IMG/VR virus record: IMGVR_UViG_3300047557_000960
Coordinates: 1-47,713 of that record
Length of the DNA stretch: 47,713 nucleotides
Direction: 5' to 3' (one strand)
DNA from: a virus
Shown here: positions 336 to 17,679 of the stretch, one piece after another
Position numbering within the stretch: position 1 is the first letter of the stretch
How the letters are laid out: each line of letters opens with the position of its first letter
Notes under the pieces: generated by a model
Told to the model about the DNA's origin: nothing
What the model saw: the letters and a program-made list of their open reading frames with translations, nothing else
Databases searched by the model: none
Translations under genes and position numbers: made by a program

Positions 336-2204
336 TTATTTAATTTCACAAGCTCCTCCTGCACAAGCTGCTTGATCGGTTAGTGTTGTGTTGTCATCCA
401 TTTCAATTATCTGAGAAAGGTCTACGTTAACTAATGACTTCATTAACTCTTCGTACTTTTCTTTAGTGCAATCTTCAAAAGGCGCTTGGATATAAGTACC
501 TCCGTCAAAAGGCAATACTGATAAACCATTATAGAACTCTCTGTTGGTCCACATCCAGTTGCCTACTTCTTCCCATTCATTCTCTCTCAAAGATATCGTA
601 GCGCTTACGTTGTGGCTATTAGCTCCATCTCTATGGCCAGGGTTTACCCACTTCTCAGTTACAAGCTTAACTCTTTCTAATAAATCTAAAGCAGTTTCTG
701 TTCTAGTGATTGATCCTTCTGGTGCTTTTTGCGGTACGCTAATTACAGCGGTATCGTGTGGTCTGAAGTATTCATCTTCAATTAACTCAGGATGGTTAGT
801 AGCCAAGTGAGAATAGATAGCTTCATTCTTTCCTACTCTTATTCTACGGATGTAGTAATCGTTATGCCAAGCGTGGATACCAGATGATGTACCTAAAGTT
901 AATGATGTTGTACCAGCAGGTTTAACCGTTGTAGTTCTTGCTGCTTTGTTTACACCAATTGATTTAGCAACTCTTTCGTTCTCCATCTTTACAACATTAG
1001 CTGCCTCAGTCATATCTAATTTTAACACAGCACCAGATGCGATACCTGTCATCGATACGCCAATTAGAGCATCCTTCTCTGTTGTTCTTTTCCAAATAGA
1101 TCTCAAGTAATGGAAGTCAGTATAACCTGCCTGTAATGTACCTATAAATGCTGCTGCTTTCATTCTGCTATTCAAGTCCTCTTGGCTTTCTACATTAGAT
1201 ACATTTACTTCCGTTAAGTTACAGAATTGATTTGGTCTTAATGCAATCTCGCAACAAGGGTTTGTACCCCAATCTTTGTCGTGAGTCAAGTAGATACCTG
1301 GCTCTCCAGATCCACTATTCTTAATTCTTTCCCATAAGTCGAAGAATAAATCTTTAGATAGTTTTCTTCTAACCAATGCTGCTGAGTTATTAGCTCGGCC
1401 TCTTTGAGGATTTAATTCCCACCAGTTGCCAGACTTACAAGATATCATCTCGTCATCGTCAGCTGAGAATAAAGAAATCAATGCAGCTCTTCTGATACCT
1501 CCAGCCAATACAGCGTCAGCAATATGACAAACCATATCGTGAACTTCGATAGGAGAAAGTTTATCGCCATCTACTTTGCTAGACAACATACCTTCGATCT
1601 TAACTAAACATTCCTTTAATGGTTGAGCGCCTGGGGCTTTACCGCCAGATGTAATTAGTCTTGCACCCTTAGGTCTGATATCTCTAAAGTCAAAATCTAT
1701 GCTTAGGCCTCCAAAGAAATAACTCTTAACAAGAACTTTAACAGCATCTGCCCATCCTTCGATTGAGTCGGCAACTAACCATCTCTTTTTTCTTGAACCA
1801 TTAGGCTTTCTTATTTCTGGCAATTGTTCCACGTGGTGTTTCTGAACAGAGAATCCAACTCCAGTTCCGCCTAATAATAGGAACATAATTTCTGAGAACA
1901 CTCTCCAATCATCTACAGGAGCAAAGCAACAGTTGTAAATTCTATTTGGGCTAATCTCAATTGGCTTGCCTCCAAACTGAAGTGATCTCATAGATGGCAA
2001 TACCTTTTTGTCGAAAACAAATTTGTAGTTTTCAATAATCTCGTTGGTTAGATGAGGGTACTTTTTGATATGCATTAGCATATTCCTAGATACTAATTCT
2101 TCCCACGTTTCTCTTCGGTTTAATTCAGGTTGGTACTTCGCATACTTAAGGAATACCGTTACTTCTGAAAGGATTTGTGACGCTTGGTCCAGTTGTTTTG
2201 TCAT
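336..2204 (-). CDS. nrdJ: Ribonucleotide reductase, adenosylcobalamin-dependent (class II, monomeric RTPR type)
   Basis: A 622-residue protein with ribonucleotide reductase landmarks: NCC at 91-93, GGTGVGF at 112-118, NPCCEIALRP at 316-324 (radical cysteine of the NPCxE motif), a further Cys at 328, KPAGT at 428-432, and a C-terminal CAGGACEIK with the cysteine pair 614/619. The tail resembles the redox-shuttle tail of monomeric Lactobacillus-type RTPR, which is why I favour class II (B12-dependent) over class I. It would reduce ribonucleotides to deoxyribonucleotides without a small subunit, and none is encoded nearby. It sits one base ahead of dut and is preceded by a terminator and a phage-type promoter box, so dNTP supply appears to be its own transcription unit. 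An additional Cys (318) replaces the usual residue after NPC. Confidence 0.9.
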   Translation of the reverse strand: MTKQLDQASQILSEVTVFLKYAKYQPELNRRETWEELVSRNMLMHIKKYPHLTNEIIENYKFVFDKKVLPSMRSLQFGGKPIEISPNRIYNCCFAPVDDWRVFSEIMFLLLGGTGVGFSVQKHHVEQLPEIRKPNGSRKKRWLVADSIEGWADAVKVLVKSYFFGGLSIDFDFRDIRPKGARLITSGGKAPGAQPLKECLVKIEGMLSSKVDGDKLSPIEVHDMVCHIADAVLAGGIRRAALISLFSADDDEMISCKSGNWWELNPQRGRANNSAALVRRKLSKDLFFDLWERIKNSGSGEPGIYLTHDKDWGTNPCCEIALRPNQFCNLTEVNVSNVESQEDLNSRMKAAAFIGTLQAGYTDFHYLRSIWKRTTEKDALIGVSMTGIASGAVLKLDMTEAANVVKMENERVAKSIGVNKAARTTTVKPAGTTSLTLGTSSGIHAWHNDYYIRRIRVGKNEAIYSHLATNHPELIEDEYFRPHDTAVISVPQKAPEGSITRTETALDLLERVKLVTEKWVNPGHRDGANSHNVSATISLRENEWEEVGNWMWTNREFYNGLSVLPFDGGTYIQAPFEDCTKEKYEELMKSLVNVDLSQIIEMDDNTTLTDQAACAGGACEIK

Positions 2205-4921: not shown

Positions 4922-5776
4922 TTAAGAAATATTTTTTCTCAAATGTAAAATTAATTCTGAAACGTAAGCCTCGCCTTGCTTTGGAGTTAGGTCGTAGTAC
5001 AAACAAACTTCTTTAAAGTCCTCAGCAGATACCTCAAACTTGGAAAGTATCATACGCTTTGCTTGGGTATTTAATCCCTCAATGATAGACGCTAAATCCA
5101 TATTGGTGTCAAATATATTCACTTGACGTGAGCTGTCTCCTATGGTTTCTTCCAAGGATACCTCTCCATCTGTTGGCGTTTCTGAAAGGTTTATGATATC
5201 GTAACCAAGTTCTATTGCTCCGATCCTTTCTGATCGTTCCATCTTGGCGTTAACAATAAATTCTATAGGGATGTAGGCCTCATCAATTTGGAGATCATTC
5301 ACCGAATCTTTAAGGCCCTTCTTGATTTTTGCCCTAAGTCGTAGTGGCTTTCTTGTAAAGAAAACAATTGATTGATTTCTTTCTATATATGCCAGTACAT
5401 ACTTTCTTGCGAAGTAATAAGCATAAGAGGACACCTTGGCCCCATTTGCCTTTCCTTCATCATATTTTTCTATGCCTTCTGAGAATCCTATTATTGCCTC
5501 TTGGAATAGGTCAGATACTGGGAACTGACCTTGTGAGGTTCTTAATGCTAGATACAATAACAACCTAAGATTGCCATCTATTATTTTATTCTTGAACTTA
5601 ACATCGCCTGTAAGTCTATACTCGGAAAGGTTTCTCAAGCATTCATCATTGGATATAACCAACTTAGATTTGCTGAACTCCTTCTCGTTAAGCATACGAT
5701 ACAGAGACTCATCATCTATTAGTATAGACGAGGAGAACTTAGGTTTCCCTTCCCAATGTTTTTGTATGAAGCTCAT
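4922..5776 (-). CDS. Sigma-70-like factor
   Basis: A 284-residue protein. Residues about 63-135 match sigma region 2: NLRLLLYLAL, then VSDLFQEAIIGFSEGIEKYD (core-binding helix), then VSSYAYYFARKYVLAYIER (-10 recognition). The C-terminal half is divergent but ends in a helical segment consistent with region 4. Role by family: it directs host RNA polymerase to phage promoters. It is the only transcription-machinery gene seen, so it is the natural candidate to read the GCGTATTATATAGG boxes (inference). Its start overlaps the stop of the upstream gene (TAATG), so translation is coupled. Confidence 0.8.
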   Translation of the reverse strand: MSFIQKHWEGKPKFSSSILIDDESLYRMLNEKEFSKSKLVISNDECLRNLSEYRLTGDVKFKNKIIDGNLRLLLYLALRTSQGQFPVSDLFQEAIIGFSEGIEKYDEGKANGAKVSSYAYYFARKYVLAYIERNQSIVFFTRKPLRLRAKIKKGLKDSVNDLQIDEAYIPIEFIVNAKMERSERIGAIELGYDIINLSETPTDGEVSLEETIGDSSRQVNIFDTNMDLASIIEGLNTQAKRMILSKFEVSAEDFKEVCLYYDLTPKQGEAYVSELILHLRKNIS

Positions 5777-15988: not shown

Positions 15989-16120
15989 TTATTTTGTTAA
16001 AGTAATAGGCGTTTGGTTTACGTCTTTTGCTAATTGGTTATCCACTGAAGAGCCGATAAAATATAGCGTAATTAATACGGCTACTAAGATAATTGCGTTT
16101 GTTACTTGTTGAGGTTTCAT
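15989..16120 (-). CDS. One-helix membrane protein, first gene after the ribozyme (43 aa)
   Basis: Minus-strand frame from ATG at 16120 to TAA at 15989. MKPQQVTNA is followed by a single hydrophobic helix, IILVAVLITLYFIG, and a polar tail. It is the first gene of the leftward early operon; its ATG lies 21 bases after the 3' end of the hammerhead ribozyme. The leader ACCCTTTAAAAAATTAAACTATG belongs to the conserved early-leader group. Function unknown. Confidence 0.65.
   Translation of the reverse strand: MKPQQVTNAIILVAVLITLYFIGSSVDNQLAKDVNQTPITLTK
16038..16046 (+). promoter_or_regulatory. DnaA-box-like site
   Basis: TTATCCACT matches the DnaA box TTATCCACA at eight of nine bases. It lies inside the small membrane-protein gene beside the putative origin region. 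A single near-match could be chance. Confidence 0.25.
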
Positions 16121-16141: not shown

Positions 16142-16194
16142 ACTTGTTTCGTGCTTTTGCACTCATCAGTTACGATACACATCGTAATACAAGT
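16142..16194 (-). ncRNA. Hammerhead ribozyme, type III
   Basis: On the minus strand every core element is present in order. Stem III 5' strand ACUUGU (16194-16189) is followed by cleavage base A (16188; triplet GUA). Stem I is UUACGAU (16187-16181), loop GUGU, AUCGUAA. Then come core CUGAUGA (16169-16163), stem II GUGC, loop AAAA, GCAC, core GAAA (16150-16147), and the stem III 3' strand ending CAAGU (16142). Stems I, II and III have 7, 4 and 6 uninterrupted pairs. Stem III carries the open ends, so it is type III. The family cleaves itself after the H of NUH, here between 16188 and 16187. It lies in the 5' leader of the early operon. Confidence 0.92.
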
Positions 16195-16357
16195 TACTTG
16201 CCTTGCTACGTATCTTCACAAGGTACTTACGTTTCGGCTATGTGTCCATAAAGGCGCTTACTAAGTCAGAACATATTGCGTAGGTCGTTCCGTGTTCACC
16301 TATCAAGCTTTGGAAAGGGACTAAGTAGCTTAGTGAGGCTAGGTATTTCCGATTTGA
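16195..16357 (-). ncRNA. Predicted structured leader RNA upstream of the ribozyme
   Basis: Between the promoter at 16363-16393 and the ribozyme lie about 160 bases without a gene but with many pairings on the minus strand: hairpin ACUAAG-CUA-CUUAGU (16334-16320), UAUG-GACA-CAUA (16250-16239), and two interleaved pairings that can form pseudoknots. These are UAGGU/ACCUA with GAACA/UGUUC (16302-16269), and ACGUA/UACGU with CCUUG/CAAGG (16232-16201). I match it to no known RNA family. Cleavage by the ribozyme would free it as an RNA of about 170 nt. Confidence 0.55.
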
Positions 16358-16362
16358 TAATG

Positions 16363-16393
16363 CAAAGATGCGACGGCAAAAAACAATTTCCAA
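16363..16393 (-). promoter_or_regulatory. Near-consensus host promoter for the leader RNA and early operon
   Basis: Minus strand: TTG (16393-16391), 20 bases, CATCTTTG (16370-16363), one mismatch from TAnnTTTG. The predicted start is near 16357, just upstream of the structured leader. Confidence 0.55.
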
Positions 16394-16658
16394 ATTTTTT
16401 CAATACTTATTTTCTATAGCAATTATAGATAAAATTTATAATGGCAATCAAAGGCAATAGAATCAAGTATTTTAATACGGCAAAATATTTAAAAATAATT
16501 TTCAGATAGGCAAAAATAATTTGAATATAGGTGTTATATTAAAGAAAAAGATAATATCAAAGGGAGAAAAAAAACAATACAAAGTAAGTAATAATCAATA
16601 GCACCAATGGTTACAGACAATTTGCCTATACAAAAAACGCAATATACTATATATATAA

Positions 16659-17241: not shown

Positions 17242-17679
17242 ATGACGATAAACAAACAAAAAGAAATTACGCCTCTTAATGGTTTAAGGAAGGTTATAAC
17301 TAAGAAGGTAGTTAACCAATTAATGGATCCTAAGACAGGGGAAGTATTTGAGGTGCTCCAAGCAGGGGAGGAGAAGGTAATAGATTCCTTACCTTTTGTA
17401 AAGGTATACTATGAGATGATCAATTTTATGTTAAGGAATAAATGCCAGGCGACCATAAAATTAATCTTATATATTATGAACGACTTGGAATATAAAGATA
17501 GTTACGTATATTTGCGCAGTACTGAGGTTTGTAAGGATTTAGGATGGAAGACTAAGGGTCCTTTCTATAAGGCCGTAAAGGGGCTAATAGAGGCCAATGT
17601 GATCAAGCGTACGGAGATAGTTAACTTGTACTATGTAAATCCTAATATGGTTTTTAATGGTAATAGGATAAAGAAGTAG
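17242..17679 (+). CDS. RepL-like initiator or regulator with winged helix
   Basis: A 145-residue protein. An N-terminal strand pair (KVVNQLMDPKTGEVFEVLQ) precedes a winged helix at about 60-130 (ATIKLILYIMNDLEY, then EVCKDLGWKTKGPFYKAVKGLIEANVIKR), and the C-terminus has YYVNPNMVFNGNR, the typical RepL ending. RepL proteins start rolling-circle-independent plasmid replication. In phages such proteins may start replication or control transcription. It is the first rightward gene, next to the repeat-rich region, under a host promoter with no leader. A phage-type box directly follows its stop. Confidence 0.75.
   Translation: MTINKQKEITPLNGLRKVITKKVVNQLMDPKTGEVFEVLQAGEEKVIDSLPFVKVYYEMINFMLRNKCQATIKLILYIMNDLEYKDSYVYLRSTEVCKDLGWKTKGPFYKAVKGLIEANVIKRTEIVNLYYVNPNMVFNGNRIKK

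Follow-up and report, generated by a model that had tools for sequence, protein, structure and literature searches.

The put RNA of phage HK022 is a structured RNA that lies right behind an early promoter, remains attached to its transcript and exerts its effect in cis. Hammerhead ribozymes flank genes in phages, where a role in transcript processing has been proposed, and they also sit between ordinary phage genes (Perreault et al. 2011, PMC3088659). Theta (HDV-like) ribozymes process phage tRNAs at their 3′ ends, mostly in phages with Bacteroidota hosts (Nat Commun 2024, PMC10879173), and pseudo-ToxI of phage PhiTE, which mimics the ToxI pseudoknot, provides a precedent for counter-defence (PMC3475682).

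The DNA analysed here, referred to as the window, is the whole 47,713-nt stretch of IMG/VR record IMGVR_UViG_3300047557_000960 (positions 1-47,713), whose portal and terminase proteins are kin to those of phages of Flavobacterium, Cellulophaga and Tenacibaculum. On its minus strand, a Bacteroidota-type promoter is followed by a noncoding leader of ~165-170 nt, a hammerhead ribozyme and a gene for a 43-aa protein, with which a long leftward operon begins (Table 1). This protein contains a hydrophobic stretch and, judged by eye, is probably membrane-spanning. Elsewhere, the window encodes a ribonucleotide-reductase-like protein (336-2204, minus strand), a sigma-70 region 2 protein (4922-5776, minus strand) and a RepL-like replication protein (17242-17679, plus strand).

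Table 1 Features of the early promoter, leader and ribozyme region of the window
Feature	Position	Strand	Description and basis
Early promoter, Bacteroidota type	16363..16394	-	TTTG 16394-16391, 20-nt spacer, CATCTTTG 16370-16363; sequence, kept in kin
Noncoding leader RNA, ~165-170 nt	16188..16357	-	3′ end at the predicted hammerhead cleavage site; no ORF, ribozyme-set boundary
Candidate H-type pseudoknot 1, better register	16267..16302	-	S1 UAGGU 16302-16298 / ACCUA 16285-16281; S2 CGGAACG 16292-16286 / UGUUCUG 16273-16267; loops 5/0/7
Candidate pseudoknot 2, as first named	16201..16232	-	ACGUA/UACGU with CCUUG/CAAGG; middle loop 6 nt
Type III hammerhead ribozyme	16142..16194	-	Descriptor and independent covariance model R2
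Exchangeable cassette, leader and ribozyme	16142..16351	-	Breakpoints from alignment to L021/L023/L033 and L032
First gene after the ribozyme, 43-aa protein	15989..16120	-	ORF; conserved in kin without the cassette

Compared with put of HK022, the locus differs in that a ribozyme would part the leader from the mRNA. The type III hammerheads (RF00008) of phage and prophage operons are alike in core, three stems, conserved loop pairs and location ahead of a gene (PMC3088659); here, however, the first ribozyme of the early operon closes off a long noncoding leader, a conserved pseudoknotted RNA in relatives, and the present ribozymes score under the Rfam gathering threshold. The closest working analogy is that of the theta ribozymes, in which a noncoding RNA of a phage likewise has its 3′ end set by a phage ribozyme (PMC10879173), although the ribozyme class is another one here and no tRNA lies 5′ of the cleavage site, none having been found in the promoter-leader-ribozyme region. 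Pseudo-ToxI and the type III antitoxin RNAs are also small structured or pseudoknotted RNAs from a phage or defence locus (PMC3475682, PMC12373285), whereas the present leader contains no tandem repeats (~34-50 nt), has no recognised toxin gene beside it and would receive its 3′ end from a ribozyme in cis. The open-licence literature that we searched holds no description of such leaders. Hammerheads in phage operons are already known; the leader RNA family and its behaviour as a cassette appear to be new.

A descriptor search of the window returned a single type III hammerhead, with stems I, II and III of 7-8, 4 and 6 bp, respectively. Stem III (ACUUGU/ACAAGU) is open, and stem I (UUACGAU/AUCGUAA, loop GUGU) and stem II (GUGC/GCAC, loop AAAA) are closed by their loops, as in the type III topology. 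The core carries CUGAUGA and GAA, the A15.1-U16.1 pair is formed by A16147 and U16189, and the cleavage triplet is GUA, a NUH sequence, with cleavage predicted between A16188 and U16187 of the minus strand. The minimum-free-energy structure of the 69-mer is the predicted hammerhead fold. A covariance model (R2) of 17 ribozymes from other phages, from which the window was left out, matches 16196-16140 of the minus strand with 66.5 bits (E 1.7e-17), its sole credible match in the whole window; the training ribozymes themselves are 95.9% paired, with double changes at 13 of 16 pairs, and none of 500 shuffles was as good. The descriptor and R2 agree with the first-pass annotation, which had placed the ribozyme here and ended the leader at 16188. 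By these sequence comparisons the hammerhead is a real one, and its self-cleavage is predicted. The Rfam model RF00008 yielded just 20.8 bits with a misplaced alignment, below its gathering threshold of 48.5 bits, which is a library cut-off and no structural criterion; clear relatives of this hammerhead also miss that threshold, narrowly, at 43-45 bits. With such a score, the window hammerhead would escape ordinary annotation. The 3′ strand of stem III is repeated in the leader (CAAGUAAC at 16200-16193 and 16146-16139, minus strand). It is possible that the leader copy competes for the 5′ strand of stem III and so forms a switch, the 8-base match being at about chance level. We rejected the direct repeat around the ribozyme as an insertion scar because, by our own estimate, ~0.4 such repeats are expected by chance in such a length.

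Transcription from the early promoter is expected to start at ~16360-16354. The stretch from there to the ribozyme had been described as gene-free, and it indeed holds no ATG ORF of at least 25 aa, the ORF of the 43-aa protein being the first gene; a 51-aa TTG ORF over the leader was rejected as coding because its start lies upstream of the −7 box of the promoter. Two pseudoknots had also been named in the leader, and the minus strand contains all eight of their 5-mers at the pairings given: UAGGU (16302-16298), GAACA (16297-16293), ACCUA (16285-16281) and UGUUC (16273-16269) for the first, and ACGUA (16232-16228), CCUUG (16223-16219), UACGU (16212-16208) and CAAGG (16205-16201) for the second. 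The doubt voiced about the first, which has no linker as drawn, was justified: a better register uses the second GAAC copy and pairs CGGAACG with UGUUCUG into a canonical H-type pseudoknot, with an energy that is not significant, being equalled by 7-14% of shuffles. The second is not canonical as drawn because its middle loop is 6 nt long. Among dinucleotide shuffles, 1.5% contain two H-type pseudoknots that are disjoint and have 5-bp Watson-Crick stems, and 25% contain one; the loop limits were chosen after the data had been seen. The named strands thus exist, but the first pseudoknot is better drawn in another register, and both are candidates that stand weakly above chance. In its nested fold, the leader gains no stability over shuffled sequences (z = +0.68; 154 of 200 shuffles fold at least as well).

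The same architecture is found in other phages. Relatives were gathered by means of a common early 94-aa gene and by pattern scans of viral contigs, and the descriptor detected 98 distinct type III hammerhead sites in the gathered loci and viral contigs. The order of promoter, noncoding leader, type III hammerhead and first gene recurs in tens of phage contigs, and a large set with Flavobacterium-type promoters carries ~110-330 nt of noncoding leader from the early promoter to the ribozyme. Among cultured phages, those of Elemovirus (host Flavobacterium sp. BAL314; 68 records) share the arrangement, and GenBank annotates no RNA gene for the leader there; the RNA predicted from it is ~180 nt long and ends at position 5177 of locus L127. 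The pattern of the type III ribozyme is rare in the genomes of bacteria and archaea, with 8 stretches as opposed to 91 in viral contigs. This recurrence bears out the earlier view of promoter, leader and hammerhead as one unit, predicted to free an RNA of ~165-170 nt.

Hammerheads also occur in other settings among the loci collected. One contig (L078, IMGVR_UViG_3300042884_000166) carries nine hammerheads of type I and one of type III on one strand within 14 kb, apparently near a large share of its genes. In other phage lineages (L065, L067, L070, L074, L076, L098, L101, L112, L116, L120, L122), a gene end and then a short strong hairpin, for example AGUGUCUUUAAAGACACU, precede the type III hammerhead, such that the upstream mRNA would retain a protective hairpin at its 3′ end after cleavage. 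Long structured-looking leaders of differing sequences precede the ribozyme in L140, L133, L135, L143, L176, L181, L186 and L189, and in L181 a tRNA lies nearby. A tRNA-like match in L052 (3816-3956) spans 141 nt, far beyond normal tRNA length, which suggests an insert inside a tRNA gene.

Two groups of leaders could be aligned. The alignment of the first (group A, nine leaders) displays an H-type pseudoknot together with two hairpins, one small and internal, the other 3′, with a loop of AAAUA and stopping a few bases short of the cut. Stem S1 of the pseudoknot is GGGU/ACUC and S2 varies (GUCC/GGAC, GCAU/AUGC, GACU/AGUC and others); 94.7% of the cells are paired and 11 of 21 pairs show double-sided changes, values that none of 500 shuffles reached, and control structures slid along the alignment pair 27-48% of the cells. 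A covariance model (R1) built from these nine leaders, a group defined in the present analysis, detects further leaders, one per record and each abutting the cleavage site of a ribozyme, and it matches 14 of 22 other records directly upstream of the type III hammerhead. The group-A leader is a genuinely conserved pseudoknotted RNA. Group B (L053, L088, L099, L106, L165) is characterized by another leader, which forms a pseudoknot of its own, GGCUG/CAGUC; its S2 is present in five differing sequences, four of which pair fully and the fifth at 4 of 6 pairs as aligned by hand. Neither group matches an Rfam family. Selection would maintain the leader structure in these alignable groups.

The leader of the window has the position of a group-A RNA, with a promoter before it, a type III hammerhead after it and its 3′ end at the predicted cleavage site; R1 gave no match on it, and we rejected its assignment to that group. 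No homologue was retrieved by blastn from phage records or the collected viral loci, nor by a pattern scan of viral contigs, and the genome of the window holds no second copy. No Rfam 15 family matches the leader, and the single match at relaxed thresholds, TCV_H4, was dismissed as chance. The best of 98 pairwise comparisons of 3′ ends with the window leader gave p 0.003, as expected by chance from that many, and a likeness of its 3′ end to those of L082/L127 and L111 (UGG..CCGA, CUUG..CAAG) was not significant in these comparisons. By these searches, the window leader has only position and ribozyme in common with the leaders of relatives.

Alignment to close kin delimits the leader and ribozyme as a unit. 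Three relatives (L021/L023/L033) have ~90% DNA identity to the window and a fourth (L032) is also close kin; all match the window promoter region up to '..GCATTATCAAAT', and L032 and L033 keep the promoter as ..TATGTTTGCATTATCAAAT.., there before a different first gene. Between the promoter and the 43-aa gene, these kin carry one or several protein genes, and their records lack the hammerhead. Since both flanks are kept with protein genes in between, positions 16351 to ~16142 of the window would represent one unit that is gained or lost whole. The small protein genes in the slot behind the promoter also differ between kin (~1100-1540 in L033, ~1540-2680 in L032), which indicates that the slot acts as a hotspot for accessory genes. 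Exchange of the leader itself is apparent among other loci: the alignment score per base between L052 and L053 is 0.78 in the promoter flank, 0.11 in the leader and 0.94 in the first gene, that between L053 and L103 is 0.94 in the flank and 0.08 in the leader, and many other locus pairs have the leader in common and not the first gene. By these alignments, leaders are exchanged as cassettes among phages.

As the simplest reading that accommodates these observations together, we propose that 16351-16142 of the minus strand is, on balance, probably an accessory and exchangeable phage RNA gene, with a 3′ end made by the hammerhead and a product that serves as folded, trans-acting cargo. The early promoter would start the transcript at ~16357 and, once stem III is completed, the type III hammerhead would cut the nascent RNA at 16188|16187. 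This would free an RNA of ~165-170 nt that carries a triphosphate at its 5′ terminus and ends in a 2′,3′-cyclic phosphate, and the remaining early mRNA would bear a 5′-OH and begin within stem I of the ribozyme. The ribozyme would thereby act as a terminator-independent 3′ processing site of the leader, and the freed RNA, most likely pseudoknotted, would target host or defence factors in trans. We favour a role in trans because cleavage would free the leader, because kin run the operon without it and because unrelated leaders precede the same gene. A regulatory or anti-defence role, as suggested in the first-pass annotation, is one of several possibilities, and counter-defence would fit the rapid exchange of leaders. 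Against an RNA gene in the window itself speak the lack of a homologue or R1 match, a nested fold similar to that of shuffles and pseudoknots close to chance.

An alternative that we consider unlikely is that the ribozyme only processes the early mRNA, giving it a 5′-OH end that might shield it from 5′-dependent decay, and that the leader is a discarded remnant of the 5′ UTR. As hammerheads are common between ordinary phage genes (L078; Perreault et al. 2011, PMC3088659), processing of the mRNA could suffice to account for the one in the window, and the absence of excess stability in the window leader is in line with this. However, a discarded spacer would be expected neither to be conserved nor to be swapped whole with its flanks kept, and the leaders of relatives are conserved, with double-sided covariation and in single copy exactly before the type III ribozyme. 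Similarly improbable is a cis element of the early operon, be it a put-like RNA for polymerase read-through or an aptamer that controls ribozyme cleavage. The leader does immediately follow the promoter of a long leftward operon, its CAAG at 16200-16197 could pair with the 5′ strand of stem III in rivalry with cleavage, and a short hairpin just ahead of the cut is common to many leaders; yet the competing CAAG pairing is not conserved in group A, cleavage would separate the leader from the mRNA, and close kin run the same operon leaderless. Moreover, the unrelated leaders that precede the same gene in L052 and L053 suit cargo better than operon control.

Another reading, to which we assign a rather low probability, has the leaders serve as decoys that engage RNA-antitoxin (type III toxin-antitoxin) systems or other defences that sense RNA, in the manner of pseudo-ToxI of PhiTE. 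An early RNA that is pseudoknotted, predicted to be released, exchangeable and diversifying would suit such a decoy, for which pseudo-ToxI sets the precedent (PMC3475682), but tandem repeats, the hallmark of ToxI-like RNAs, are absent, and neither an adjacent toxin gene nor an Rfam family was recognised. Lastly, an ordinary intergenic stretch beside a chance look-alike of a hammerhead, a reading with which the weak single-sequence pseudoknot statistics would agree, is very improbable given a ribozyme that scores 66.5 bits on a model from other phages and an architecture that recurs.

Beyond the accessory RNA gene proposed for the window, we raise, tentatively and with more doubt than confidence, a wider possibility: in many phages, the first element of the early operon may be a fast-diversifying class of pseudoknotted RNAs with hammerhead-cut 3′ ends, swapped as cassettes and consistent with counter-defence or host takeover in trans, of which the window would be a so far unique member. 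If true, a ribozyme gives a dedicated early noncoding RNA of phages its 3′ end, and such RNAs form a large and variable class that was overlooked because Rfam thresholds skip the ribozymes, the leaders belong to no family and the Elemovirus leader is unannotated. The presence of the arrangement in Elemovirus, on a cultured host, makes cleavage, the freed RNA and its partners accessible to direct testing. A ribozyme-made RNA of this kind would also provide a concrete answer on the purpose of hammerheads in phages, a question that dates from 2011.
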